From contig PUQB01000104.1 in NCBI GenBank assembly GCA_003024785.1, positions 420,506 through 484,505 on the forward strand: a DNA stretch of 64,000 nucleotides. The letters run 5' to 3'. Shown here in pieces: positions 5,215-47,309 of the stretch. The position numbers and the translations under genes are program-made. The DNA is from Selaginella tamariscina (Eukaryota; Streptophyta; Lycopodiopsida; Selaginellales; Selaginellaceae). Below the pieces are notes generated by a model. It searched no databases. It was not told where the DNA came from and was given only the letters and a program-made list of their open reading frames with translations. Position 1 is the stretch's first letter. Every line of letters starts with the position of its first letter.

Positions 5215-5742
5215 TGTCACAACCCGATACAGGATACAGGATTCCAGAACATGATACAAGATACAGGATACGGGTTACAGGATATACCTACAAGATATGC
5301 TTGCAGGATATTCCTATAGGATATACCTACAGGATATTCCTACAGGAATGCCTATAAGATATGCTACAGGATATGCTAGAGGATAAGGGTCACTATTCTT
5401 AGCTCATGACTAGATTAGACTCATGACTAGATTAGACTCATGACCAGATTAGCTTGGAGTTGTGAGCATAAAAGCTCCGACCTAATTGTTGTACAATCAG
5501 TTACTATCAACACCAGTCTTACTACGATCAATCTTGTTTTGTCTTGTTCTTATCCTGCTCCTTGCTTCTTGTTCTCTCCTTGTCTTGCCCCGGATCCTAT
5601 CCTGATCCTGTCTTGCTCCTGGATTCCGTCCTGTTCTTGTCTTGTTCCAAGTTCCTGTCCTGCTCTCGGTCCTGCTCCTGAGTGAAGCTTACTTGCTTTT
5701 AGAATCCTGCTCTCTTTCTGGTTCCTAAATCATGGCTTGACA
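5215..5742 (+). repeat. 3' LTR of chromovirus A copy 1
   Basis: Starts TGTCACAACC directly after the polypurine tract and ends GGCTTGACA, giving 5-bp inverted ends TGTCA/TGACA. It contains a degenerate 11-12-bp tandem array of ACAGGATAT/ATAGGATAT words (5225-5390), a TATA box (CATAAAAG near 5469) and, about 30 bases on, CAGTTACTATCAA, the proposed transcript 5' end. Length is about 528 bases, close to the 3' LTR of copy 2. Confidence 0.92.
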
Positions 5743-7390: not shown

Positions 7391-8299
7391 TGTCATAGTT
7401 TTATTATGACTCAACCCTTTACTTTGGACGTTGATTGTTGTTACTTATCGAGTTATGTGACGAACCCTAGTTGTAGTGAGAAACAGCCCCGCTTAGTGCA
7501 ATTAGGTGTTTAGAGGTAGTCCGGCCGGCTGTCACTAGTACATCGAGAAACTCTAGGCAAATATAGTACTTACCTTCTAGAAAACTCTCCCCCAGTTTGA
7601 CGTTCTAAAGTAGGTTTTCTGTTAAAAAGTATAGCTTGTCAAAAAGAGTTAGGGGACACCCTAGGGTTGACCTAACCCCACGCCCTAACCCCCCCCTAGG
7701 GGTTAGGTTTAGGGTTAGGTTAAGAAACAAGGGGGGGAGGGGGGGGTCCGCACATAAATAAGGTAGAGTATATGTAGTGAGGCTTCCTGGGTTTCAAAAG
7801 AGAGCTCGTTAACCTCCTATCGGTGCAGGCTAAGCTTGTGTCATCAAGGCACAACCCTCTGTTGTGCCGCCCTAACTTCCACATGACAGGGGTACGTCCC
7901 ACCTTTGGGTTAAACTATCCTTATCGTTGGCAGGATCACACCTTTATGACGGGAGTACGTTACTTCCAAGGAGTTAGTCAGATTCCTTGGCCCGAAAACC
8001 TACTCGCACGCTCAAAGGCATTGCCCGAGTTCACGTTCCGTAGATCTAGTGGTTGAGGCCTTGCTCTGACCGCCTCAACCACACCAAGCTAGGAATGATA
8101 CCTGTAGCTTGGCTAGTCCGTGTGTCCTGATTCACAAGGTGAGCCTCGTTTGTGGACTTGGTTAGCTAGGGGCTTAAGTTTCGAAGGGTTGGGTTCGCAA
8201 TATGGGTTACTTTACCAGATTCCGTGGGGTTTCTGAGAGGGGATTTCAGGGTTGGCACCTGGCAAGCCGCCTTTGTGGCACCAGGTAAAAACTCTGACA
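7391..8299 (+). repeat. 5' LTR of gypsy element B
   Basis: About 909 bases, TGTCATAG to CTCTGACA. It shares almost every block with 12615-13506, including GTAGTCCGGCCGGCT and TTATCGTTGGCAGGATCACA. It holds telomere-like words (GGTTTAGGGTTAGG, near 7700) facing a C-rich partner (CCCTAACCCCCC), and G-runs at 7730-7747. A near-end inverted repeat CACCTGG/CCAGGT sits at 8250-8286. Confidence 0.93.
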
Positions 8300-8899
8300 A
8301 TTGGTAACGAAGCAAGTTCTCTACAGTCAATAGGATTGCCTTAAGTCATAGGGTGTTTCAGTGTTTAGATAACTCTAAATTCTTGATATACTCTATCGCT
8401 TTCGATTGACATGTCTGTATTCTAGGTATGTCCGAAAGTCTTATGCTAGTTCAAGCTGATGTGTGTGGGTGTACAACCTGTGCAGGGTGTTTTCCAACTT
8501 TACATTGAGAATATTCCAAGCATATTCTCTGAGTGTTGAAACTAGGGTTCAATACAATGAGCAAACGAAAGTAACCAGAGCTTGAGGTAGAGAGGCTGTG
8601 CGCAGAGGCTCAAATGAGGAGATGGATGAGGTTGATCCATGTCGACCCCCTAGAGTTAGACAATGACCTGGCTAGCGAAAAATAATGATGGATGCCCTAA
8701 ACGAACTTCGAGGGGATTTTGGGTTGAATGACCGAATCGATAATGTTGACGTTTGGATTCTGACGAATACTACACTGCTAGTGTTCCGTAACTAGACACA
8801 TGGAAAAAGAAGAAGAAGCATGACTCAGAGTCAGGTTCCTCTGAATCAGATTCTTCGACGGAAGTAAATGGTAAAGGTCCTAGTAAATTCAAACCGGTA

Positions 8900-9700
8900 A
8901 AGCCTTCGAATTTCATGGGTTCAAAGGATTACAAGGTTTTGGATGACTGGTTGTATGATATGGAAAGCTATTTTGAGGCTGCTTCCGTGAGAAAGACAGA
9001 AAAGGTTACATGTGCCAAGCAATTTCTTAAAGAAGAAGCTAAGACTTGGTGGCGAATTGTTGAAAGTGAATGTGGATACCAAAATAGCTGGAAGCACATG
9101 AAAAAGGAGATCAAAAAGCAGTATATGCCGGATGATCTCGGTTTGCGATTGCGTGCTGACTTGGCACTTTGTCAATAGGGAGTTTGGGAAAGTCCAATGG
9201 ACCACGTTTATCGATTCGAAAGTGTACAGCGATTGGTGCCAAATATGAGCGATGATGAAGCTCGAAGTTGCTTCATAGCTAGCTTGAATGGGAGGACGCA
9301 AAGGGAAATCTTAAGGTACAAGACAAGCTATCGGGAATGTCAAGAGGCAGCTCAAAAGGTTGCTTATGGCATGTCGTTAGAAGACTTGTACAAAGGGAGG
9401 AAGCAAAGCCTAAATCGAGGAAGTTTCCTCCAAAGTTTGGGTTTAGAAGGTTTGATAAGCGACCAGATCAATCACCATCGAATCGAAATGCAAGTCCCTT
9501 TGTTGTTAGTTCTTAAGTTTTTGAATATATCAAGACCCATCGGATCTCGAAAATCATTAGCATTACCACCACCTCAGCAGAGCTAAGGGCTCGGCTCAAA
9601 GTCTGTTCCTTCGCAATCCGCATGCGGGGTTCGTACATGTCACAATTGTAACAAGCATGGTCATTTCGCTAAAGAATGTCGGACCACCTTCACAACAATC
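8900..9700 (+). pseudogene. gag: Gag of gypsy element B with CCHC zinc knuckle
   Basis: Capsid-like text such as WLYDMESYFEAASV, EEAKTWWRIVE and LRADLALCQ runs from 8915, continues in the same frame past a TAG at 9177, and goes on as DHVYRFESVQRLVP and ARSCFIASLNGRTQREIL to 9586. The nucleocapsid knuckle C-x2-C-x4-H-x4-C (CHNCNKHGHFAKEC) is at 9638-9679 in a shifted frame. Gag coats the element RNA. The substitution stop at 9177 is not a homopolymer slip and looks like real decay. Confidence 0.85.
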
Positions 9701-9783
9701 AGGTCATTTCAAGGCGATGGTTAGAAGAGGAAGTTGTTGAACCATAAACGCTTGAAGATCTAAAGGATGAGTCAGAAGAGGTA

Positions 9784-10449
9784 ATGTTGTGCCAGACACA
9801 ACCTGCCTTATTCGTTATTCAAGACAAAACTAACCCTTTGTTATATTTGACAGGAAGGATACGAGGGGACCGAGTCCGAATGATGATCGATACTGGAGCA
9901 ACATACAACTTCATATCGACTAGTCTAGCTCGTCGATTGAATTTGGATGTAATAAAGATGTGTGAAATAAAGATCAATTTTGGCAAAGGTTCTCAAAATA
10001 CTAATAATATAGCAAGGGCAGTTCCTGTCCAAATCAAAGATTGGAAGGCTAAGCTAGACTTAGTTGTCTTGAATATGACGGGGTTTGACTTTGTTTTGGG
10101 TATGGAATGGTTCCATAAACATGTAATCGAAATGAGGGGTTCCGGAGATAATCGAATCACGCTTGCAGCAGATAAAGAGGACATTAGAAAAACCACGCTC
10201 AAAATGGAAACGCTAACTGATAAGGATTGGAATCCTATGTTCCTTACCTTAACTCAGTTGCGTAAGGCAGTTAGACATCGGGAACGTGTTTTTCTTGCAA
10301 TGGTTTTGGATACTGGTGAAGTCAAAATAGGAGATGGTCAAGAATCTGTTCCTGAACCTATTTTGGAAGTCTTGAACATGTTTAAGGATGTGTTGCCAGA
10401 AGACTTGCCGCCTGAGTTACCTCCACGTCGAGTTGTGGACCACAGATAG
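9784..10449 (+). pseudogene. Protease and start of RT of gypsy element B
   Basis: An open stretch of 221 codons carries the aspartyl protease active site MMIDTGATYNFIS (catalytic Asp at 9889-9891) followed by VLGMEWFHKH. It ends in the linker typical of plant gypsy pol, [18 protein letters not shown], just before the RT. The frame stops at 10447 and continues in a neighbouring frame. Confidence 0.88.
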
Positions 10450-10454
10450 AGATT

Positions 10455-11690
10455 TTGCCAGGTTCGTCTCCACCGGCAAGAGCCCCATATCGGTTGAATC
10501 CTCAAGAGTTAGTAGAATTGAAGAGACAGCTGACAGAATTGATTGGTCGAGGACACATTCGACCTAGTCGATCGCCGTATGGTGCACCTATCTTGTTTGT
10601 AATGAAAAAGGATGGTACGATGCGAATGTGTGTGGACTATCGAGCGCTGAACGCGATAACTATCAAAAATAAGTATCCTCTTCCACGAGTGGACGACTTA
10701 TTTGATAGGCTATCGAAAGCAAAGTATTTTTCAAGAATAGACTTGAGATGGGTACCATCAGATTCGGGTAGCAGAATGACATTGAGAAGACCGCTTTTCG
10801 AACGCGTTATGGATCATTTGAGTTTCTAGTCTTGCCATTCGGGTTGTGCAATGCTCCAGCAACTTTTTGCACAATGATGGATGATGTGTTTAGAGACTAT
10901 CTAGACGAGTTCGTAGTGGTGTATATTGATGACATTCTGTTTTCAGTTCGACAATTGAGGAACATGTGGAACACTTAGAAAAAGTGTTTCAGAGGTTGAG
11001 AGAGAACCATTGTATGCTAAAGAAAGCAAGTGCGCATTTGGTCAAACCAAGATAGATTTCTTGGGACACTTGATCTCAGGTGGGGAGGTTGCCATGGACC
11101 CAAAGAAAATTCAAGCTATTACCGAGTGGATGACTTTAAAAACGTGCATGAAGTTAGATCATTTCTTGGTCTAACAGGGTATTACCGAAGATTCATAAAG
11201 GGTTACTCGGAAATAGCGGCCCCATTGACAGATCTTACGAAAAACATTCCATGGCATTGGACTCCAGAGTGCCAACGTGCGTTCGTCAAACTCAAAGAGG
11301 CTATCTCTTCTGAGCCAGTTTTGCAGTTGCCCATCTTTGAAGATCCCTTTGAAGTAGAATGTGACGCTTCCGACTTTGCAATTGGTGGTGTATTGCAACA
11401 GAAAGGACATCCAGTGTCCTTTTTCTCGAAAAGTTAGATGCCGCACAAACTCGATGGCCTACTCAAAAAGGAGATGTATGCTATTGTTGCTTCCTTGGAG
11501 TATTGGCGTCATTATCTTCCAAGTCATGGCACTGTGGTTTGGACAGATAGTGTAACTCTAAGGTATTTTGAAACGCAGCCGAAGCTATCGCCAAAATATG
11601 CTAGATGCAACAGAAGTTGTCATGATTTCAGCTTTGAAATCGACATAAGCGGGAAATGTGGTAGCTGATGCACTCAGTAGGAAGGGTCAT
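10455..11690 (+). pseudogene. pol: RT and RNase H of gypsy element B
   Basis: RT motifs in order: [57 protein letters not shown] and the YIDD box at 10922-10933. Thumb and connection follow ([16 protein letters not shown] in parts, [20 protein letters not shown]). RNase H shows [13 protein letters not shown] and NVVADALSRKGHLR. At least five frame changes occur between 10740 and 11660. The combination IKNKYPLPR with YIDD is standard for plant chromoviruses. Confidence 0.9.
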
Positions 11691-11869
11691 CTTCGTATTA
11701 TGTCAGCACCCGTGTCAACTTTGGTGGATGAATTTGTGACGGCGTATCCTCAGGACAAGTTTGCTAAGGAGGCTTTGAGCCTGGTGGCAAAGAGGAAACA
11801 AGTTCATCAATTACGAAAGATGGTAATATTCAGCAGGAATAGAAAAGTCGAATGATGCACTCAAACAAG

Positions 11870-12245
11870 CCATTTTGCAGTACGAGATGGAGTTCTTTAT
11901 TATAAAGAAAAGAACTCTATGTTCCAGTAAATTCCAGACTCTGTGTTTCATGTCAATTTACTCAAGCCATTCCACAAGGATGAGAAACATCCGCAAAGAT
12001 ATGAAAAAGTTATGTCCGCTTCCTGAGCTGGTCAGCAATACAAAGAAGTTTGAAGTTGAGTCGATTTTGGATGCAAAGATATTAAACGCCGAGGGTCATG
12101 GAAACGTTACAGTTAAGTGAAAGGGTTACCTGGCATGCGAGTCAACATAGGAACCATTGGATAATCTACAAAACGCGATGGAGGTAGTGAAGGAGTTTGA
12201 GGCAAGGTCTCAAACTCTTGATAATGATGATGAGATATAAAGTGA
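11870..12245 (+). pseudogene. Post-integrase region and chromodomain of gypsy element B
   Basis: RNase H passes through VRDGVLYYKEKNSMFQ, which normally precedes the zinc finger of integrase, directly into a sequence like FHVNLLKPFHKD, which normally follows integrase. The whole HHCC-DDE integrase, over 1 kb in autonomous relatives, is therefore deleted. The chromodomain remains: VESILDAKILN, then KGYLACES and EPLDNLQNAMEVV, with stops in between. The region from 12246 to 12614 is untranslated and ends in the purine tract. Confidence 0.85.
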
Positions 12246-12614
12246 ACTTCTTTCTTATTAACCTAGGGGCCGATAGACAACCTTAATTAGAGGCCTCCAA
12301 TATAAATTCTAATTAACTTTAAAAAATTATTTAATTTGTTGTATGTGTCAGGTGACAGACTTTGCAGATGTGCAAAAGGTCTCCAAGTGACTTCTTGTCA
12401 CAAGTGGTGCCTCTGACAGCTGAGTTGGCGCTCAATGAACGACGGTTCTAAAGTACTTGGCTTCATGTAATGCAAGGGGGTAATAAAATTGTGAACATTT
12501 TGCTGACTTCGCATAGAGTGATTAGCATTAGTTTTCAGTTAATTTTTCCTAACCTAGTCTAGTCTTGAAGTTAGACGTTAACGAGGACGTTGACATTTTC
12601 AAAGGCAGGAAGTG

Positions 12615-13506
12615 TGTCATAGTTTTTTACTATGACTCGACCCTTTACTTTAAACGTTAACTATTGTTACCTATCGAGTTGTGTGATGAACCCTAGTTAT
12701 AATGAGAAACAGCCTCGCTTCGTGCACTTAGGTGTTTAGGGGTAGTCCGGCCGGCTATCACTAGGTACCTCAAGAAACTCTAGGCGAAGGTAGTACTTAC
12801 CTTCTAGAAAACTCTCCCCCGATTTGACGTTCTAAAGTAGGTTTTCTATTAAAAAGTATAGCTTGTCAAAAAGGGTTAGGGACACCCTTAGGGTTGACCT
12901 AACCCCCCATAGGGGTTAGGTTAGGACAACTCATTTTCTCTAAGGGCTAGCATTTCCATGCCAGGCCACTTACTCACTTAGGAAACAAGGGGGGTCCGTC
13001 ACATAAATAAGGTAGAGTATATGTAGTGAGGCTTCTTGGATTCAAAAGAGAGCTCGTTAACCTTCTACCGGTGCAGGCAAAGCTTGTGTCGCAAGGCGCA
13101 ACCCTCTGTTGTGCCGCCCTAACTTCCACACGACAGGGGTAGGTTAGACTATCCTTATCGTTGGCAGGATCACAACTTTGTGATGGGAGTATGTTACTTC
13201 TAAGGAGTTAGTTAGATTCCTTGGCCCGAAAACCTATTCGCACGCTCAAAGGCATTACCCGAGTTCATGTTCCGTAGATCTAATGGTTGAGGCCTTGCTC
13301 CGGCCGCCTCAACCACGCCAGCTAGGAACGATACCTATAGCTTGGCTAGTCCGTGTGTCCTGATTCACAAGGTGAGCCTCGTTCGTGAACTTGGTTAACT
13401 AGGAGCTTAAGTTCCTAAGGGTTGGGTTCCTAATACGGGTTACTTTACTAGATTCCATGGAGTTTCCAAAGAAGGGATTCCAGGGTTAGCACCTGGCAAG
13501 CCGACA
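12615..13506 (+). repeat. 3' LTR of gypsy element B
   Basis: Collinear with the 5' LTR but missing about 20-30 bases just before its last ACA. It also carries an insertion of about 60 bases near 12925-12990 (CTCATTTTCTCTAAGG...) not present in the 5' LTR, while the telomere-like TTTAGGG stretch of the 5' LTR is shorter here. The substitution and indel load suggests an insertion that is not very recent. Confidence 0.92.
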
Positions 13507-18489: not shown

Positions 18490-20460
18490 TGTTGCCCAAG
18501 GACTTTGAGACTTATGGATCACCTTCGACTCTAGCATCTCCCCACACAACGACTAAAGATAGCCCTTTCCTTTGTGAAATGCTGCCTTAGCCCCATTTGA
18601 TCGGTTGGGTAGCACTGGTTGGGATGCGATGCCGAGTGTTCAATAGGAAATTCGCAACTCTTGCAATGGGTTGGAACTAGGGTCACCAAGTTCAACATTT
18701 TAAGGCTTGGGAATGCATTTTTGGAACGGTACACATCCCCCACCATGCCACACGAGACAGTAATGTGCCATGGGCCATGGCCATTAGCCACATATGAACT
18801 AGTCTAAGGTTTAGGGTTTTTATGGAATATACTATTCTATGGGCCCTGCTCTTAGCTTTTTGAGATGCCGTCCTGATACAGTTGCTCCGCATGGACCGTT
18901 CCTAGATGGGTTCCCGGTGACCCTAGCTAGAACAAGTTCGAATGTCTCATCAACATGTTTTTGATGTCCTCAGCTTGATGCTTTGGAGAAGGTTCCTCCT
19001 TGGTCATCATGACATCCTGCCACACCATCACAACCCCATGTGGTGCACAACATGTAGCTTGCAACGGAGAGCATCCTGGGACAAACAAAGTGCATGTCTC
19101 AAAATCACATCTCGCCTTGATAAGGCGGAGCCGATTGACATCTAGGATAATGTTATGAATGGAAGCACATGATATATCCTTCCAACACCAAAGGCACGTG
19201 TGCAATTCGATGTGATTGAGCATAGGATTTCTTATCAGCAAACACCAGAGTTCGCTAGGCAGAAATTGTGTGCAAATGCAAGGACTTAACTATTGAATGA
19301 TTGATGAAAAAGATGGGAGATCCAAAATCCACTAACACCAAAATAGGAGTTCCTTCTACCATGCATGACATGAAATGTTCAACATTGAGCAACTCAGTTG
19401 GAACTCTTGTGCTTGCACAAGTATGAAAGAACAATGATACTCCATGAAAGTGATTACTAAATGTAGGAATTAAATTCTTTAAAGATAATGCAATAGATTT
19501 AGCACCTAGGTCCTTTGATACCCCAGACTTTACTCCCCATTTTCTGGCTAAGGCAACATGTCAACAATGTTTACTCAGGTTTGATGGTGTTTACTTAACA
19601 TCGACTTGCACACACTCTTGCAACATGTCCACTCGTAATATTGAATGTTGTGCCCTTGATCATGACCTCGCTGATAAACAAATTGGCCTCATCCTCTACC
19701 CTAGCCTAAGGACTTCGTCTCCATTTGAACAACACACACTTCCATTGGGACAAGATCAGAGGTTGTAGAAGGTCCTAAAGTGGGCATAGTCATAAGAACA
19801 GGACAATGCATTATGATGCTCCCAATGAATTTTCAAATCATTGCACAATCCTCCTTTGGGGCCAAATCCTTATACCAAGCCAATCAAGTCTAGATGAAGA
19901 GCAAGCCACAACAAACCCAATCGCATGCATTTTGTCATGCTTGAATCCACGTAATTGACAAGGTTCTAAAACTTGATTCCGAATCACTAAACAGTTTCTT
20001 TTGACAATTGTTTCAAGTCATGGAGTTTGTGAAAAGCTGTAGTGAAATCCTCTGGCTTGCCAAAAGCTTGCTTGAAACAATGGGACAAATTACTCTAGTT
20101 TACTAATTGGCGATATTTTGACAAGCTAGAAACGATGAGACAAATTACTCTAGTCTTGCTAATTGGTGATAGGGATACCATTCCTTGCCAAAAACAATGA
20201 GACAAATTACTCTAGTCTTGCTAATTGGTGATAGGGATACCATTCCTTGCCAGAAACAATGAGACAAATTACTCTAGTCTTATTGATTGGCAATAGGGAT
20301 ACCATTTCTTGCCAGAAATGATGAGACAAATTACTCTAGTCTTATTGATTGGCAATAGGGATACCATTCCTTAAATAAGTTCAGAAATGATGGAACAAAT
20401 TACTCTAATCTTGCTGATTGGCGATAAGAATACCATTCCTTAAATAAGTTCATAAATTTG
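18490..20460 (-). pseudogene. Decayed antisense Ty3/gypsy element (gag, protease, RT start)
   Basis: Read on the minus strand: gag-like FGKPEDFTTAFHKLHDLKQL near 20010-20070; then an aspartyl protease near 19290-19380 with HFMSCMVEGTPILVLVDFGS (the usual DSGS has become DFGS); then DIKNMLMRHSNLF followed by a GSPG stretch near 18900-18960, matching the FxDVF...GLPP linker that opens RT. Stops and frame changes are frequent. The order gag-PR-RT confirms the orientation. RT itself is not clearly readable below 18880. Confidence 0.6.
20075..20455. repeat. 62-bp minisatellite, about six units, inside the antisense gag
   Basis: The block beginning GAGACAAATTACTCTAGTCT starts at 20137, 20199, 20261 and 20323, exactly 62 bases apart; a variant follows 69 bases later at 20392 and a partial unit precedes at about 20082. 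Units end ACCATTCCTTGCCA. Sixty-two is not a multiple of three, so the array breaks any frame. Confidence 0.9.
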
Positions 20461-28244: not shown

Positions 28245-28868
28245 TTAGCCCCCGATGAAACCCGTCTGTTGCCAGACAGCATTCCGAACACGGCTAAGAT
28301 CTCTCCCTTTGAGAGTCCGACCCGCGCCTTCATAGACCGAGAATGCAGTATGGCTCTTGGCATACTCCCGTGCGATGAGCTCGTGAGGAGGTAGCTTCTG
28401 GGCGAACAGTTCTTCATCAAACAATCCCAGCCCATTCTCCTTGTTGTTGCTACTCCGCTTGTCAACACCGAGAATCTTAGACCAATCCGGAATGTTCACC
28501 GGGGCGGACTGATGAATCCGCTCCGATTCATACGCCGCGGGTGCCTGCGGGATCTTCCGAGACTTGGAAGCGCTCGTATTGATCGCGGAGAGCCCGATAT
28601 TCTTCAGGAGCCGATCCGAGCTCGATCCAACTAGAAAATGCGGATTTTCTTCTAGGGATCCGACCAGATTTTCTTCAAACATATCTTCCTCCTTGAGCTC
28701 GTAAAGATCCGATGAATCGATCGAAAGCGGCGACTGATGCGATAGTCCGAGGAGCCTGTCCCGCCTGCTCGATCCGGTACTTGGATTCCTGCTCTCCCGC
28801 ATCATGCTTGAGAGGCCGCTTGATAGACGCTCGCTTCTGAATGCTTCCGGCCCTATTCTCGTCATCAT
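28245..28868 (-). CDS. Senescence regulator S40 family protein (intact, 207 aa)
   Basis: A single uninterrupted frame, starting MMTRIGPEAF. The C-terminal half carries the S40 (DUF584) hallmarks in order: HQSAPVNIPDWSKILG (about residues 121-136), a run of charged residues, LPPHELIAREYAKSH, and FSVYEGAGRTLKGRDLSRV followed by RNAVWQQTGF at the end. The N-terminal half is Ser-rich with SSRRDRLLGL and an acidic patch. S40 proteins are small plant-specific, mostly nuclear proteins linked to leaf senescence and stress responses; biochemical function is not established. They are typically intronless and 100-250 residues, as here. This is the only gene in the window without any frame break. Of the two possible start codons, the first (28868) is used here. 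Confidence 0.92.
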   Translation of the reverse strand: MMTRIGPEAFRSERLSSGLSSMMRESRNPSTGSSRRDRLLGLSHQSPLSIDSSDLYELKEEDMFEENLVGSLEENPHFLVGSSSDRLLKNIGLSAINTSASKSRKIPQAPAAYESERIHQSAPVNIPDWSKILGVDKRSSNNKENGLGLFDEELFAQKLPPHELIAREYAKSHTAFSVYEGAGRTLKGRDLSRVRNAVWQQTGFIGG

Positions 28869-29374
28869 AATCGGGATTTTCGGGATAAGATCAAAATGGG
28901 TACCTATATTGGATCAGAACGATCATAAAAGAGGCATTTTGAAGGACTTTTGTATAAGAATCAATCTTAAAAGAGGGATTTTTGCAATCTAAAAGAGGGA
29001 TTTCGTGAATAAGAACGAGAATTTCATAAAATGGGGATTTTATGAAATGGGTACCCTTCAAATCAGTACAATTTTGTGAAAGAAAATGAGGATCTTACAG
29101 AAATCCGAGAAGAAAAAAACAGAGGATCAGATCAGGGATCGGAAATCCGGGACGGAGAAATCGACACGGGCAAACGGGGGACGATCCTTGTAATAAATTG
29201 CATTATCTTATACCCAATCGCATGGGGAAGCTTGCGCCGTACACAATGGTGTGTAATCTTCGCGTGAACACGCTTGCGTATCGGATTGAAATCCACGAAC
29301 TCACGCAGAAGATTTGTGGAAAACCAGAGAAGAGAAAAGCTTTGCCCTAGAACATGGCCCAGCTATTCAATGAG

Positions 29375-35331: not shown

Positions 35332-37306
35332 TTGTATGTGTACACACACACACACACACACACACGAATGTACCAAATACTGAAGGTGCTCCAAGGTAAA
35401 GCCAGGAGTATCTGAATATGATCAATGAGACGTCCAGGTGTGGCAACCAGAATTCCACTCGACTCTCAGCGAATATCCCCTTGTTTCCGTACTGTATTTC
35501 TCTGAAGCACGTATCTTCTTTGTACGGGAAGTGCACCAGCTGTGATGCCTCTGTGGCCACTGATGTCTGCCCTACTGCAATCCCAACCGTTAATCCCACT
35601 GACGGTACGATTGCATCAAACACTTGCTTAACCTGTTTAACCATTATATGTGTTAAGAATTTATGTATGTGTGTGCATTGCGAAGCGACACTAAGCAGTG
35701 CGTGTGTGTGTCTGTGTGTTTGAATGTCAGATAATGTTCTACACATGCATGTGTTGTGTATAATACCTGCTCAACAACATCTGTTGATATAGAATGTGGT
35801 ATTGACATTATATATATGTGTGTAAGTACATATATATTGTGCTCTACCCGTGTGCGTGTTGTGTATCATATCCTGTGTACCACATAAGCACTAAAGATTA
35901 TGTCTATCTATTTTGTACATAAATATAACTCATATAATATTATAATAGCGTGTCTCTAATATGCATCTTATGCGCCTCCTTTAGTTTATATAATATTTGT
36001 ATGAATATCAGAGGTTTGGTATAAAAAAGAACTACTAATATATGTATGCACGAACAAATGTCTATGCACACATCTGTACACACATGCATAGCACACCTGC
36101 ATGGCTAGATCGCGTGTTGGGACAACAATGAGTGCTCTGAGGTGTTTTAAGAGGCGACGTGAGAGGGATTGTGTGATGGGAAGTGCATAAGCAAGTGTTT
36201 TACCACTCCCTGTAGGTGAGCATATACTCAGATCCTCTCTCCTCCCCCAGGTCCAACCGTTGCATGCCAAACAGCTGCTTGCACAGGAAATAGTAAACTT
36301 ATCCCCATTTTCTCCAAATCCCGCACCTGAAAAAAGACATGGGTATACGTTGTATTTTACAACTACGAATAATGTTTTTTTGTTTGCATAACATATAGAT
36401 AGCAGAAATGTATATTGAGATAGAATATATATTATCTGTTATAAATTATATTCTCTATAAATAAATGTTGAACACAATATATACAGCAATCCGTATACAT
36501 ATGAGACGGAGAATACAGATATTAATTAACCAAAATATACAGAGTACTATGTGTGTGTGTGTTTATTTACATTATTATACACTATAACGAATGTTTGTCC
36601 CTGTAAAGCCTAACGCACATACGTATACAAATATTGCATTGTGTACATGTAGGCTATCTTATCTAAAATTCATCCGTCTATTTTATGCATCGATGCACAT
36701 GAGTTAGTTATGTATCTCGTAGTGTCTTTTTTTTTGTGTGCGTGTGTAATTTGAATAGAACTAATATTTAACCGAGAGTACTAGAAAACAAAATATATTA
36801 AATTATCTGTATTCATATACTAAACACAGTCTTAACTGAAAATGAATAATGAAACACTGTAAAGCTTTATATATAAGAATGGCAATTCTACATAGATGGT
36901 GTGCATTTGTGTAATTTGGACAAAGAGCTACAGGACACTATAGATATAATATATCACACCATTAGCTGTGAACTTAATGATGAATATGAACTCAATATTT
37001 ACCTGGACCATATAGATATAATATATTACTGTTAATGCAATGCTTTCGGGATATTGCCACATAGTATAATGAACTATACTACAATTATAGAAAGTTAGAA
37101 AGTTATAGAAACCTAATATCTGTACACTTCATAACACACAGAGTGCTATGTATATTATATATAAGAAGGACAAAATATGTATCTGATATATTATATATAT
37201 ATTAATATAGACCTGGATCAAGAAAGGGAACATTGTGGAGACTGAGCTCGTCGAAATTGTTGACATCAAGGGGATGCCGCATCCATTGTAGCACGGGAGG
37301 CGCCAT
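32908..37306 (-). CDS. RH1: DEAD-box ATP-dependent RNA helicase RH1 (DDX51/Dbp6 type)
   Basis: Exons on the minus strand: 37213-37306 (start MAPPVLQWMRHP), 36097-36326, 35374-35632, 34982-35114, 34230-34412, 33798-33985, 33372-33576, 33071-33176 and 32908-32981 (stop TGA). Motifs in order: Q-region ISLLFPVQAAVW, motif I SPTGSGKTLAYALP, Ia PTRDLAMQ, Ib VATPGRLIDHI, II VVDEIDRLLREAYQ, III ILSATLTKDP, IV VVFTSSVQNTHRL, V ASDAMARGMDV, VI HRVGRTARAGKSG, and a tail ALEKLKEIL. Motif II is DEID where plant RH1 has DETD. The family works in 60S ribosomal subunit assembly in the nucleolus. Frame breaks at about 36235 (one G) and 35413 (one A) are repaired by a single homopolymer base; the junction of the 34982-35114 and 34230-34412 exons also loses frame. 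Exon phases suggest a missed short exon between 36326 and 37213. Family and direction are certain; the exact model is not. Confidence 0.88.
35286..35366. repeat. GATA/TAGA tetranucleotide array and CA run in an intron
   Basis: About eleven TAGA units (35286-35330) are followed by (CA)n (35342-35366), ending seven bases from the splice donor of the RH1 exon that starts at 35374. GATA arrays are highly length-variable. Confidence 0.9.
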
Positions 37307-40605: not shown

Positions 40606-41241
40606 CCATTAAAATGCTTCATTGCTTTAAATATATAAAAGCCAAAAGTCATTTCCAGCTGTATTGATAGACACTACAAGTGTAAGATGCTCAATTGTTG
40701 GGGACAGTGTTATAACAGTTTTTCATTCCTCTTAGTGAAATGGTCTCTAGTCCATCTGTTTTTGAATGCTTGTAAACTAGTTTTGTCATAGTTCCATATA
40801 TGATGTGCATCATAACCACCTTGTTAATATTCCTTTGCAACCTCTCATAAAAACCATGCACGGCATCATGTGTCAAATGTTTTTCTCTACTAGCCCAGAT
40901 TCTTTGATGTGTGAATGCTAGCTTCTTGAATCCCTTCATCCAAGCCCTACCATGTCACCACCTTTCTGTGGAGTCTCACACCTGAAGCCAAAAAGAAGCA
41001 TCCTCCTTTACTCTCTCTTTATAAAAGGGTAACCAACTTGAGCACTAACAGTACACAGGCGAACAAGAGATTCTTCCTCCTCCTCCGTTAGAATAGTAGG
41101 ATGTCCTTTTATGGAAGTCTTTATTTAACCAAATAACCATCAATGAATGGTACTTCGAGACATACCAAACTTATGTGTTGCTTCTCTCTTAAAATTCCCA
41201 TTCTCCACTTTTTCACAGCCTTTTGTAAATCTTATGAATTC

Positions 41242-41649
41242 TGTCACGACCCAATACAGGATGCATAATACAGGATACGGGTTACAGGATATGCCTATAG
41301 GATATACCTACAAGATATGCCTGTAGGATATACCTACAGGATATTCGTACAGGATATGCCTATAGGATATACTACAGGATATGCCTAGAGGATAAGGGTC
41401 ACTATTTTTAGCTCATGACCAGATTAGCTTGGAGTTGTGAGTATAAAAGCTCCGACCTAATTGTTGTACAATCAGTTACTATCAACACCAGTCTTTCTAC
41501 GATCAATCTTGTCTTGTCTTGTCCTTGCCTCCTGCTCTTGTTTTATTCCTAGTTCCTAGTTCCTATCCTGCTCTGTCCTTGTTCTGAGTCAAGCTTCCTT
41601 GTTCTCGAAATCCTGCTTACTTTCTTTGTTCCTAGATCATGGTTTGATA
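41242..41649 (+). repeat. 5' LTR of chromovirus A copy 2
   Basis: Starts TGTCACGACCC, ends GGTTTGATA. It contains a shortened array of ACAGGATAT/ATAGGATAT words (41255-41390), a TATA box TATAAAAG at 41442-41449 and the motif CAGTTACTATCAA at 41473-41485, 31 bases after the TATA box. Confidence 0.93.
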
Positions 41650-41651
41650 AT

Positions 41652-41664
41652 TTGATAGTAACTG
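41652..41664 (+). promoter_or_regulatory. Candidate self-primer binding site
   Basis: TTGATAGTAACTG, two bases inside the 5' LTR end, is the exact reverse complement of 41473-41485 in the LTR, which sits where transcription should begin. No match to the usual plant tRNA primer (TGGTATCAGAGC) is present here. Confidence 0.7.
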
Positions 41665-41747
41665 CTTTTATAATTTTCCGATTTTCAGCTACTTTTTTTT
41701 TTCCTTCATTCTTCTCCTTCATTTTCCTTTTTTTTCTTTCATAGATC

Positions 41748-42705
41748 ATGGCCGATTTTGACAATTTCAACGCAAGCACCAAATATTGCTTCATAAGTGG
41801 CCACTTTGCGCCAAGTGGTCACAGATCTGCAAGGTTCCACCAATGCGGCACATGTAGTTGCTGATGCATCCTCCAAGGCTGATGTGTAGGCTCTTTCAAG
41901 CATCCGATTTCCTCTTACATCGAACACTTCTTCGGAGAAAGATTAGCATGCCAGAAAAGTTCAATGGCAATCGTGCCGATTTCCAAGGGTTCCTGAATAG
42001 ATTAGGCTTTTGATCCGCATGCAACACATCGCTACTCGACTGATGCACAAAAGGTTGGCCTTTTGGCATCCTACTAGTTGGATCTCATGGGCTTGGGTTG
42101 CCCCTTTGCTGGAACGTGACGACCCATTGATGGAAGACTTTGAAGGTTTCATGGCTGCCTTTGAAGCTTGCTTTGGAGATCCCGATAAGTACCGTTCGCA
42201 TGCACAAAGTTATGAAAGCTCACACAAGGATCTCGACCAGCTTCCGTTTATGCATCGAATTTCAGCAACTTTGCACGAACATTCCATGGGACGAACTGCA
42301 TTGATTGAACACTTCCGTTTTGGGTTGAGGGATGATGTGAAGGACCTTCTCCTTTCGTTACCGGATGCCCAAACATTAGCGGAGATCATGCAACAGGCCG
42401 TTTGCTGCGACAACCGCTTGTTCGAGCGTCGTCAAAAAATCCCGTCACAGTTCCTGCAAACCAATCCTGCAGCTGTGGTACATACTTCTGCGACACCTTC
42501 TGGAGTAGTTCCTATGGAGGTTGAGAAATACAAGCGTGGCCCACTTTTGCTTGAGAAGCAACGTCGCCGCAGTGAGAATCTATGTTTGTATTGTGGTGAA
42601 GCAGGACACAAGGCGGCGGAATGTCCTATTAAAGCCAGGAAGTTCAAGACGCGTGAAGTTGAAGCTGAAGTTCAGTCGGAAAACTTCAATGTTCACTTCG
42701 TTTAG
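41748..42705 (+). pseudogene. gag: Gag of chromovirus A copy 2 with CCHC zinc knuckle
   Basis: ATG at 41748 is the first after the leader, but the frame is broken before MPEKFNGNRADFQGFLN (about 41950) and again near 41998. From 42010 an open stretch of 231 codons covers a retrotransposon-gag capsid (LLERDDPLMEDFEGFMAAFE, YRSHAQSYESSHKDLDQLPF, DVKDLLLSLPDAQTLAEIM) and ends with a nucleocapsid knuckle CLYCGEAGHKAAEC (C-x2-C-x4-H-x4-C) at 42584-42626. The PEKF-G...FRGFLNQ wording is that of the Ty3-type gag also found in vertebrate sushi elements. Confidence 0.88.
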
Positions 42706-42799
42706 GAGCCACGAAGTTGGACGTAGTGCAGGCTCCACTCCATTGGTGCTGCTCATACCATTCCATCACTCAAGTTTCCTATACATTCATTCAATAATC

Positions 42800-43060
42800 G
42801 AGAGCTCAAGGAGTTTGCCCTGTTAGACACTGGTGCAAATGCATGCTTCATGGATGACACTTTTGCAACTCAACATGGCATTCCGATGGTGAAGTTGAAG
42901 CGTGCAGTTCCTGTAGAGGTGGCCGATGGTCGTCTGATTGCTTCTGGGCAGTTACCCATGCTACCAAACCTCTCTCTTGCAGTCATGGCGCATTCAACTG
43001 TTCAATTTCCTTCAACTTGATCAAGACTCGGTCGACTCCCATTTTTGGGCATGCCATGGT
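42800..43060 (+). pseudogene. Aspartyl protease of chromovirus A copy 2
   Basis: Active site FALLDTGANACFMD with the catalytic Asp at 42826-42828, then VEVADGRLIASG, and in a shifted frame a block like FLGMPWF at about 43045. It is in the same frame as gag but separated from it by two TAG codons (42703 and 42724). Confidence 0.85.
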
Positions 43061-43109
43061 TCGTTGTTGCAAATCCTCAGATCAACTGGAGGTCTAGGAC
43101 GTTCACGTT

Positions 43110-43640
43110 TTCCTCTCCGGCAACCAGGACCAATCCTGTACCTTCCTGTGTGCAGAATACATCCTTAGTGTCTGAGGCAGTACAAGCTACAGGATTGACC
43201 GTGCCTGTTCCTGTATCAGTGTTGAAGTTCCTCCTCGACAGGATCCACCTCCTATTGGTTCGTCAGCACACTCACAAGTTCTCCTCACTCCTGTGCATCC
43301 ACGGACTTCTGTACAGGATTCTTCCAATCCTGTACACTTGTCAACATCCACACATGTTTCTCCCAATCCTGCCTCTTTTCATTACTCTTCTTCTGTTCCA
43401 CCCCCCAAGATCCTTCCTCTTTTTCAATCACAGCTCCCTCCTTCTCCTCCGAGTTCTTACCACTACCATGCATGAACTTGCCACTGATCCTGCTCCTTTT
43501 CATCTTTTTGCCTTCCAAGTAACTCCTACGTCCTCTTCTACCTTTCCTGTATCTGATTCCCTGTTTTCAATCTCCTTCTCCTATTCCTTCTTCTTCTCCT
43601 CTTCTTCTGCCATCCAAGTATCACTCCTTTCAGAACGTTT
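43110..43640 (+). other. Low-complexity Pro/Ser-rich linker between protease and RT, with CCTGTACAGG-type words
   Basis: Between protease and RT the element has about 500 bases of T/C-rich sequence coding mainly Ser, Pro, Leu and Phe in every frame. It repeats TACAGGATT, AATCCTGTAC and CCTGTATC several times. The LTR array uses the same ACAGGAT word. No conserved domain is visible. Confidence 0.6.
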
Positions 43641-44990
43641 TTGACAAGCACAAGGCTGCAGTTCTTCCTGTTCACAGGTCCTGACTGTCCTATCGATCTT
43701 GTGGAAGGAAAGACTCCACCGTTCGGACCGATTTATGCACTGTCACCTACAGAATTGGAGGTTCTTCGTCAGTACATCGAGGAAAACTTGGCATCCGGCT
43801 TCATTCGTCACTCAAAGTCCCCTGCAGGAGCACCTATCTTCTTTGTCAAGAAGAAAGATGGGAGTTTACGTTTGGTTGTGGACTACAGAGGTTTGAATCA
43901 AGTCACCATTCGGAACGGTACCCGTTGCCATTGATCCCGGAACTTCTCGATCGGCTGCAAGGAGCAAAGTGTTCACGAAGATCGACTTACGAGGGGCTTA
44001 CAATCTTGTACGGATTCGTCCAGGCGATGAGTGGAAGACTGCCTTTCGTACAAGGTATGGACACTTCGAGTACACGGTGATGCCTTTCGGACTTACCAAT
44101 GCCCCAGCCGTGTTCCAACACATGGTGAACGACATCTTTCGTGACTTCTTGGACCAGTTTGTGGTAATCTACCTCGATGACATTTTGATTTTCTCCAAGG
44201 ACCAGGCGGCTCATGACAAGCATGTACGACTAGTCTACAGAGGCTTCGCGAGCATGGCCTGTATGCGAAGTTGGAGAAGTGTTTCTTCGACAGGGATACT
44301 GGAGTTCTTGGGCTACATCGTCTCTCCTGCTGCGTTTCCATGGACATGCACAAGGTGAAGACTATCGCGGAGTGGGAGAGGCCCAAGTCTGTACGAGATG
44401 TACAATGTTTCCTTGGCTTTGCAAACTTCTACAGGCGTTTCATACAGGACTTCTCCAAGCGTGTACTTCCACTCACGGAACTCACCAAGCGCACAGGAGT
44501 GTTCTCTTGGTCCGACAAGGCAGAACATGCATTCACAACACTCAAGACCTTCACGACAGCTCCGATTTTAGCACATCCTGATCCTTCTCGTCCCTTCTTT
44601 CGTTGAAGCAGATGCCTCGGATTTTGCAGTAGGATCTGTTCTATCACAAGTTGGAGAAGATAAGTTGCTTCATCCTGTAGCTTTTCACTCTCGTAAGTTC
44701 CTTTCGGCAGATCAATTACGAGATTCATGACAAGGAACTCAAGGCCATTGTGGATTCGTTCGAGGAGTGGCGGCATTTCCTGGAAGGTGCTGCGCATCCT
44801 GTACAAGTTCTTACGGATCACAAGAACCTGGAGTATTTTCAAACGGCTCGAGTTCTCAGTCGGCGACAGGCTAGGTGGGCGGAGTTCCTATCACGTTTTG
44901 ATTTTCATCATCTACAGGCCTGGTTTTTGAAATGGCAAGGCGGATGCATTGTCTAGGCGCTCTTACCTTGCACCGACCTCGTCAAAAGCA
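43641..44990 (+). pseudogene. pol: RT and RNase H of chromovirus A copy 2
   Basis: [77 protein letters not shown] and [11 protein letters not shown]. Thumb and RNase [45 protein letters not shown] and [18 protein letters not shown]. Breaks near 43918, 43967, 44235, 44290, 44330, 44600, 44708 and 44905 are mostly single-base differences from copy 1 in short runs (for example GG against G at 44333). The family placement is as for copy 1. Confidence 0.93.
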
Positions 44991-45239
44991 AGTGTTGTTG
45001 GGTCCTGATCGACTTCGGCTTGCAGCACTACAAGTTCATCAGGCTCCAGCAGATTCCACACTCCTACAGGACATCCGTTTGCAGTTGGCTAAAACGACTT
45101 GCAAGGAATGTGTTTTCACACATTAGTCCTGACATCGCAAGTTCCTCTTCCTCCAGTTCCCGTACAGACTACAAGTTGTTTACCATATAGGACGGACTCC
45201 TGTATGGGAAGGTCTCCTGTATGTTCCTGTTGGTGTTTG

Positions 45240-45800
45240 CAGGACTCGTGTGTACAGGATTGTCATGATACCCCGGCTACAGGACATTTTGGTGTGGCCA
45301 AGACAGTTGAGTTGGTGACTCGAACTATTGGTGGCCTGGGTTGCGAGGTTTTGTGGACAAGTTTGTACGGAGTTGTGACACCTGCAATAGGTCGAAGATG
45401 CCTCGTCACGCGCCCTTGGTCTTCTTCGTCCTCTTCCTGTTCCTTCTGCTCCTTGGAGATCCATTTTTATGGATTTTTCACAGATCTTCCTCCTTCTCGT
45501 GGATTTGATGTAGTTCTTGTGTGGTTGACCATTTCACCAAACAAGCTCATTTCTACCATGTCACAAGACTGCTACAGGCCAGACAACTGCTGAGTTGGTG
45601 ATCCGGAAGTATTCCGACACCATGGTCTTCCTGAGAGCATTTTTCTAATCGAGGCCACAATTCATGTCCAAGTTTTGGCGAGAACTTCTCCGGAGTCTAC
45701 AGGTTAAAGCGGACCTTTCTTCAGGATACCATCCACAAACTGATGGGCAGTCAGAAGCACGATTCAGACCTTGGAGTAATATCTTTGCTGCTTCATCAGT
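45240..45800 (+). pseudogene. Integrase of chromovirus A copy 2
   Basis: HDTPATGHFGVAKTVELVTR begins the HHCC zinc-binding region, followed by the CxxC part (SCDTC.RSKMPRHAP) and the core: a SMDFxTDLP-like block with the first Asp near 45470, DVVLV, DHFTKQAHF and PQFMSKFWRELLRSLQ with YHPQTDGQ (45660-45755). AEFAYNNSVHAST (45835-45875) is the conserved motif following the Glu. Numerous frame changes. Confidence 0.88.
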
Positions 45801-46299
45801 TACCAACAGACAACTGGTTGGACCTTTTCCAATGGCGGAGTTTGCCTACAACAACTCCGTTCACGCATCTACAGCCAGACACCTTTCTTTGCTCTTACAG
45901 GCTACCATCCACGTTTTGACTTTGCTCCTCCTGCTTCTCCTTCTTCGTTCCTGCAGTACAGGATCGTCTCTAGCATCTTCGTTAGGATCTCCGGGTTCAT
46001 CTTCAGCAGGCACAGGAACGGTACAAGCGTCATGCTGATCTCATCATCAACCGGCACCTGCATACAAGATTGGTGATCTCGTGTGGCTTCTTCATCGGCA
46101 TATTCGCACCAATAGGCCTTTTTCTAAGTTGGATTTTCAATGATTGGGCCCTTACATGATTGCGGCTGAGGTCAATTGTAGCTTTCCGACTCGAGTTACC
46201 ATCTACGGTGAAACTTCATCATGTGTTTCACACCTCTTTATTGGAGCCATTTCCTTCTCTCTTCCTGGTCGTGCTTCTTCTCCTCCCCTCTGTGGTCAT

Positions 46300-46513
46300 T
46301 GACGGTGAACCTGAGTACGAAGTTGCAGCCATCCTTGATTCTCGTCTTCATCTTCGCCAACTTCAATACTTGGTGGATTGAAAAGGTTATTTGTCTATCG
46401 ATCGCACTTGGGAACCTGCATCCAACTTACTCCATGCTTCTTCCAAAGTTGCTGCTTTCCATCGGCGTTATCCTATTAAACCAGGTCCCAAGACTCGTGG
46501 AACTCATCCTTAG
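46300..46513 (+). pseudogene. Chromodomain of chromovirus A copy 2
   Basis: [20 protein letters not shown] then [24 protein letters not shown] in parts, with one break at about 46380 (TGGATTGAAAAGG). TAG at 46511 ends pol and overlaps the polypurine tract GGGAGGAGG just before the 3' LTR. Confidence 0.86.
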
Positions 46514-46524
46514 GGAGGAGGTGC

Positions 46525-47049
46525 TGTCATGACCCGATATAAGATGCATGATATAGGATACAGGTTACAGGATATGCCTATAGGATATACCTACAGGATA
46601 TGCCTACAGGATATACCTACAAGATATGCATGCAGGATATTTTTATAGGATATACCTACAGATATTCCTACATGATATGCCTATAGGATATACCTACAGG
46701 ATATACCTACAGAATATTCCTACAGGATATGCCTGTAGGATATACTACAAGATATGCCTAGAGGATAAGGGTCACTATTTTTAGCTAACCAAATTAGACT
46801 CATGACTAGATTAGCATGGAGTTGTGAGTATAAAAGCTTCGACTTAATTGTTGTACAATCAGTTATTATTAACACCAGTTTTCTACGATCAATCTTGTCT
46901 TATCTTATTTTGCTCCTTGCCTCCTTGTCTTTCCTAATTCATAGTTCCTGTCCTGCTCCCTGTCTTGCTCCTTGTCCTACTTCTGAGTTAAGCTTCTTTA
47001 TTCTCGAAATCCTGCTCACTTCCTTGTTTCTGGATTGTGGGTTGACAAA
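46525..47049 (+). repeat. 3' LTR of chromovirus A copy 2
   Basis: TGTCATGACC to GGGTTGACA. The ACAGGATAT/ATAGGATAT array is longer than in the 5' LTR (46545-46765, about 220 versus 135 bases). TATAAAAG is at about 46832. The proposed transcript start here reads CAGTTATTATTAA, two changes from the 5' LTR. Confidence 0.93.
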
Positions 47050-47309
47050 TTCCAACACACACTTGTCTCTTTTTACATTGCTTGGACCTAGGTCTTGATG
47101 AATTTTTTCAGTTGAAGTTCTTGGACACTTATTGGTTTCATTAACTTGAATTGAAGCCTTCTTTAATTGTTGTTTTCTTCCAAGTTGTGTAGAGGAAGGT
47201 AGAGGATCATGGTGAGATTGTTGTGGACTCTCTTGTTGAATACATCGTGTGTTATTACAAGTTACTCAAACTTGCCTTGTTTGTGGCTTTTCTTGCAAAT
47301 AATAAGATT

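Follow-up and report, generated by a model that had tools for sequence, protein, structure and literature searches.

The primer of the fission yeast element Tf1 is 11 nt long. For Tf1, Tj1 and Tosmo, a cleavage site has been proposed, according to the excerpts of two reports (PMC4600332, PMC10085805). As far as the excerpted sources go, self-priming of plant gypsy elements has so far been a sequence prediction: Neumann et al. 2019 (PMC6317226) predicted that most Tcn1-clade elements in mosses and club-mosses are self-primed, and the one described spikemoss element, SM-Tcn1 of Selaginella moellendorffii, was reported with evidence for neither tRNA priming nor self-priming (PMC2864245). The excerpts of two other papers (PMC4659654, PMC10541799) contained nothing bearing on the priming question. 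The remark in the initial annotation of the present locus, that it knew of no well-described self-primed gypsy element in a plant, is partly outdated by the excerpted PMC6317226.

The locus described here carries a Tf1/Sushi-group (Tcn1-like) chromovirus which, with a probability that we put at roughly 0.93, uses the 5' end of its own mRNA, folded back, as the primer for minus-strand DNA. Self-priming, inferred in the initial annotation from a single copy, is now strongly supported by coupled changes of the LTR arm and the primer site, by the lack of a TGG-type site and by the Tf1/Sushi-type reverse transcriptase. Self-priming is not new in kind; what appears to be new here is a genome-wide record of the probable copying of the primer into the primer site. 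The titles and abstract openings surveyed in the literature hold no report of coupled LTR and primer-site change in self-primed elements.

All coordinates refer to the window, the whole stretch of 64,000 nt that was analysed, and copy counts refer to its own genome (300.7 Mb in 1,391 contigs). The element spans 41242-47047 on the forward strand, flanked on both sides by an identical target-site duplication, AATTC (41237-41241 and 47048-47052). Its 5' LTR (TGTCACGACCC...TTGATA, the usual family end being TTGACA) occupies 41242-41649 and its 3' LTR 46525-47047. The 5' LTR contains a U3 array of approximately 13-bp TACAGGATATGCC units (41283-41394), a TATA-like box TATAAAAG (41442-41449) and, at the 5' end of R, the self-primer motif CAGTTACTATCAA (41473-41485), in which A41474 is probably the transcript start. 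The LTR is followed by a 2-nt spacer (AT, 41650-41651), the putative primer-binding site TTGATAGTAACTG (41652-41664), recognised by complementarity and copy comparison, a T-rich leader (41665-41747) and the likely gag start codon (41748-41750). The coding pieces, all on the same strand, comprise gag with a CCHC zinc knuckle (42001-42705; 19.9 bits against a curated cut-off of 20.8), reverse transcriptase (RVT_1, 43897-44358), integrase (H2C2, 45093-45593, below the curated cut-off) and a chromodomain at the integrase C-terminus (46382-46510; Chromo match 24-53/53, E 2.4e-4, below Pfam's curated cut-off). A polypurine tract AGGGAGGAGGTGC, assigned by inspection, lies at 46512-46524. The reading frames are broken, and the window copy looks old because the two longest pieces over which its LTRs could be aligned agree to only approximately 81-86%. 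A second copy in the window, referred to as copy 1, has a 3' LTR at 5215-5742 on the forward strand; no 5' LTR was found for it within the window, and its neighbouring pieces include Chromo halves 1-26 (E 0.0014) and 27-47 (E 0.021), which are likewise below Pfam's curated cut-off. U3 arrays of 13-bp TACAGGATATGCC-like units were observed in the window at 41283-41394, 46566-46767 and 5276-5385; within a single element the two LTRs hold unequal numbers of units (8.7 vs 15.7), and the arrays of the sister loci L058 and L104 differ in number by one unit. Rfam and ARAGORN scans of the window returned nothing, and a viral-contig collection yielded no relative.

By sequence, the element is a Tf1/Sushi-type (Tcn1-like) chromovirus residing in a plant genome, which agrees with the earlier assignment: its reverse transcriptase falls with those of Tf1/Sushi elements. 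The named proteins among the 120 nearest reverse transcriptases listed include those of frogs, a salamander, reptiles, Cryptococcus, Absidia and Endocarpon, which we take, in line with PMC6317226, to represent the Tf1/Sushi group. In a tree of 20 rows, which included no plant Tcn1 sequence and whose inner order was not resolved, seven plant-type rows (the other chromovirus of the window and its relatives) formed a 100/96 group without this element; the rejection of a tree in which the element was forced into that group was borderline (AU p 0.0505). The other chromovirus lies at 7391-13503, with direct repeats at 7391-8269 and 12615-13503 (84% alike) and a plant-type reverse transcriptase. It reads ...CTCTGACA (ending at 8299) and then ATTGGTAACGAAGC, a TGG-type site, and provides a tRNA-type contrast within the same window; within its own LTR, the 20 nt that follow 8299 find a complement of no more than 6 nt. 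Elsewhere in the window we noted a host gene for a senescence regulator (28248-28913, reverse strand, PF04520), a DEAD-box helicase exon (35989-36438, reverse strand) and a tandem array of 62-bp units (20128-20457). The senescence regulator is most similar to a protein of Selaginella moellendorffii (45% identity, 93% of the query covered), which makes a spikemoss the probable host.

With regard to the motif pair, both the positions and the pairing given in the initial annotation were confirmed: TTGATAGTAACTG is a perfect 13-base complement of CAGTTACTATCAA, and the first base of TATAAAAG lies 31 nt before C41473. The LTR motif is also kept exactly in copy 1, at 5498-5510, as had been claimed, while in the 3' LTR of the window element itself it occurs at 46860-46872 with two mismatches, both C>T. 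The LTR end at 41649, followed by the 2-nt spacer and then the primer site, refines the earlier placement. In the genome, the 13-mer of the LTR arm has 4,950 matches, compared with 8 for a backwards control. On contig C1 (e.g. 1454177-1463933), the places of the 13-mer suggest tandem copies of the form LTR-body-LTR-body with common LTRs.

Family copies were sampled through a reverse-transcriptase search of the own genome, in which 128 of 17,666 first-look candidates were scored. Irrespective of their arms, 118 of the scored candidates were chosen for retrieval of the upstream stretch, which in one case did not exist; the remaining 117 together with the window copy gave 118 loci. Both arms could be assessed in 106 readable loci, from which L131 was left out on account of spurious anchors, leaving 105 copies. 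Both arms were unchanged in 70 of them, the inner 12 bp were perfect in 86 and the full 13 bp in 72. Conservation is poor at the 13th pair, so that a putative 12-bp helix from A41474 to A41485 gives a better description of the functional core. The box upstream is CATAAAA in 101 copies (exactly 31 nt upstream of the motif in 97) and TATAAAA in two, with none of the sought forms in the remaining two; TATAAAAG is therefore a variant of the window copy. The 2-nt spacer is GT in 85 of the 90 copies readable in an earlier pass.

These positions suggest the following course of events. Transcription would begin at or beside A41474, and the first approximately 12 nt of the RNA would anneal to the primer site, which lies 2 nt past the end of the LTR. 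The primer would be cut after approximately A41485, presumably by the RNase H of the element, and extended into U5. Plus-strand synthesis would later copy the RNA primer, so that the primer site of the next generation would be partly rewritten from the 5' end of R. Given that new LTRs would receive the start of R from its 3' copy, and that the primer site would be copied partly from the primer, a change should appear in the LTR first and in the primer site later.

A change of this kind was found at position 8 of the LTR arm, where six of the 105 copies carry T>A. Four of these six, and none of the other 99, show the corresponding A>T at the primer site (Fisher p 3e-6, in a test that treats copies as unrelated, so that, the copies being related, its p-values overstate independence). 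The check proposed in the initial annotation, namely whether LTR motif and primer site co-vary, thus gave a positive result in the sample and again genome-wide, where the variant LTR arm lies upstream of 60 of the 64 readable variant primer sites (66 in total), across several LTR lineages. The variant arm itself, as a 13-mer, has 243 matches in the genome against 3 for the backwards control. The first 100 of these 243 places include 16 facing pairs, 11 of them at 231-235 bp and the others at 286, 315, 339, 358 and 359 bp; the opposite arrangement was seen 0 times among the same 100. They also include 18 presumed elements in which both LTRs have the variant arm, on one strand and at a distance of 4.8-6.5 kb; nine of these elements are also exact in the primer site. 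Among the other nine, four have the matching base together with a changed outer end (L177, L180, L182, L183), two have lost the partner base of the primer site (L178, L179), two have an unchanged primer site (L181, L104) and one has no primer site after the LTR (L176). Seven of the unpaired variant places were fetched as well: L189 combines a variant arm with an unchanged primer site, in five others the LTR with the variant arm has no primer site behind it, and L193 does not resemble the family.

Searching from the other side, the variant primer site was found at 66 places in the genome and at none for the control. Within the range of the earlier list, an exact variant arm lies upstream of 24 of 33 such sites; two sites (L105, L114) had already been read in the 105-copy sample. 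A further 40 were fetched, of which 34 were coupled (five with an additional arm change), four were not (L197, L199, L201, L203, all with an unchanged arm) and two had no readable arm (L196, L198). The rule that variant primer sites never accompany an unchanged arm is accordingly true in the reverse-transcriptase-anchored sample (0/99) and false genome-wide (4/64). The four exceptions go against the LTR-first order and may be reversions or recombinants, whereas the loci with a variant arm and an unchanged primer site (L088, L104, L181, L189) would agree with it. The coupling is seen at one arm position only, the remaining arm changes being mostly unmatched C>T decay. A matching primer-site change for one-base insertions in the LTR arm was sought as well, and the idea was rejected: the LTR end could be read in 17 of the 20 loci fetched, a primer site was missing behind it in 14, and the insertion was matched in none of the other three (L064, L071, L076). 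An extra T in the LTR arm (CAGTTTACTATCAA or TAGTTTACTATCAA) is recurrent, and six loci of this kind (L060, L061, L068, L075, L077, L078) have no primer site next to the LTR.

Whether the element is self-primed or not, the coupling could reflect common ancestry or recombination of one variant pair rather than repeated copying of the primer, and of the 50 coupled pairs with a measured distance, 30 do belong to one subfamily with an arm distance of 231-235 (11/16 and 19/34). However, coupled sites span R-U5 sequences that are only approximately 70-85% alike, at arm distances from 202 to 359. Within the subfamily of approximately 234, moreover, sisters with identical 201-nt R-U5 spacers differ at the partner base, which is the old one in L104 and the matching one in L058 and L114, and copies that are 99% alike have the partner base deleted (L178, L179). 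L058 and L104 share the same variant LTR arm, and over 670 aligned columns their sole substitution is the matching primer-site base; the alignment is otherwise interrupted by a gap of 13 columns within the U3 array, and one T-run differs in length. We regard common ancestry or recombination of a single variant pair as unlikely, though not negligible.

Repeated primer copying is also suggested by the variation at the end of the primer. When C>T, G>A and the coupled site are omitted, primer-site bases 12-13, which face the first two bases of the arm, show 19 changes in 17 copies, compared with 2 in one copy for the ten inner positions, in a count whose binomial p ignores relatedness; the first two bases of the LTR arm show 1 non-C>T/G>A change. 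This end of the primer site varies as if it had been rewritten from a primer ending there. Among the 105 copies, the outer G is most often lost (8) or changed to C (6), and C replaces the outer G in 12 of the 40 fetched variant sites. In a simple reading, pair 13 would be unused and the transcript would start at A41474, with no need for an excess of C. A bolder reading, possible but rather doubtful, is that each copy preserves its primer as a fossil in the primer site, and that the outermost G of the site recurrently becomes C or is lost because the plus strand, in copying a primer that starts with capped A41474, adds C opposite the cap before strand transfer. An excess of C would then be expected, whereas the simple reading does not require one. 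Genome copies alone would in that case suffice to locate the mRNA 5' end and to demonstrate self-priming, for whatever family behaves in this way.

The same two sets of observations bear on the possibility that the inverted repeat is functional in another way, as an RNA hairpin that serves packaging, translation or export and owes its complementarity to selection. A coupled change by itself attests to pairing and not to priming, and the helix is predicted to form: it is present with 13 bp in the minimum-energy fold of 41473-41760, and its mean predicted pairing is 0.825-0.970 in 20 of 21 folded copies, the exception (L043, 0.15) having lost two primer-site bases. Nevertheless, the arms occupy the expected transcript start and the obligatory place of a primer site, where no TGG-type site is present, and variation gathers at the primer-site bases facing the RNA 5' end and not in the LTR arm, which makes a hairpin with no part in priming very improbable. 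The folding energy of the leader was set aside as evidence because it is unremarkable compared with shuffles, being no better than theirs (z 0.06). A possible second helix, adjoining the primer site, would join CTACGATC (41497-41504) to GATCATGG (41635-41642), whose usual family form is GATCGTGG. The CTACGATC/GATCGTGG pairing is exact in 61 of the 105 copies, and wobble pairing is still possible in 26 more that carry a one-base C>T. No third helix corresponding to that of the Tf1 'pretzel' was identified. The spacer in R-U5 is poor in A (7-10% in 19 of 21 copies) and rich in C and T, which may keep the 5' end free for the primer site.

A host tRNA, used through its 3' end, an internal part or a half molecule, could also be the primer, the LTR match being secondary. 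There are precedents: tRNA-Met primer sites are described for Beta vulgaris chromoviruses in the excerpted PMC3605345, only Tcn1 self-primes among plant chromovirus groups according to the excerpted PMC6317226, and the plant-type chromovirus of the same window has a TGG-type site. In the present family, by contrast, all 105 copies lack TGG in the 30 nt next to the LTR end, so the primer-binding site starting with TGG that marks the tRNA-primed plant chromoviruses (CRM, Tekay, Reina, Galadriel) was found in none of them, and priming by a tRNA 3' end was set aside on this ground. Moreover, the primer-site changes track the LTR arm, which a constant tRNA would not produce, and we give tRNA priming of any form hardly any weight. 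A chance complementarity fixed in a recently amplified family is next to impossible: high conservation alone would prove little because the family is uniform, but when 41241-41760 was subjected to 2,000 mononucleotide shuffles, the 20 nt starting at 41648 found no complement longer than 10 nt in the upstream LTR (reached in 5/2,000), compared with 13 observed, in keeping with the initial judgement that chance was unlikely, and the position-specific coupled changes contradict it.

Self-priming thus remains the preferred reading. Because the primer itself would be copied into the next generation, the thousands of copies in this genome permit a test of priming from sequence only. If the scar at the end of the primer is real, it would give transcript starts and primer lengths for inactive elements, and it would bear on the arrival of Tf1/Sushi elements in early land plants.

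Among the known systems, Sushi-ichi and other vertebrate Tf1/Sushi elements are close in that the nearest named reverse transcriptases, among the matches listed, include those of Bombina, Phyllobates and reptiles; they differ from the window element in their animal hosts. The TAR elements Houba and Osr-1 are plant elements for which self-priming was likewise predicted, according to the excerpted PMC6317226, whereas they are Ty1/copia elements of an unrelated lineage. Tf1, Tj1 and Tosmo of fission yeasts share with the present family an mRNA 5' end complementary to a site adjoining the LTR, as described in the excerpts of PMC4600332 and PMC10085805. Self-priming of Tf1 has been shown experimentally and needs a three-duplex 'pretzel', according to the excerpted PMC10085805, while the window family, known from its sequence, has a core of 12-13 nt and one tentative second helix. 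SM-Tcn1, as described in the excerpts of PMC2864245 and PMC6317226, resembles the window element in its spikemoss-type host, its Tf1/Sushi relationship, its chromodomain and the T-rich stretch between LTR and gag, and its LTR, at 440 bp, is similar in size to those of the window element (408 and 523 bp). The two differ in that evidence for neither mode of priming was reported for SM-Tcn1, whereas the window family displays exact pairing and coupled changes in many copies.
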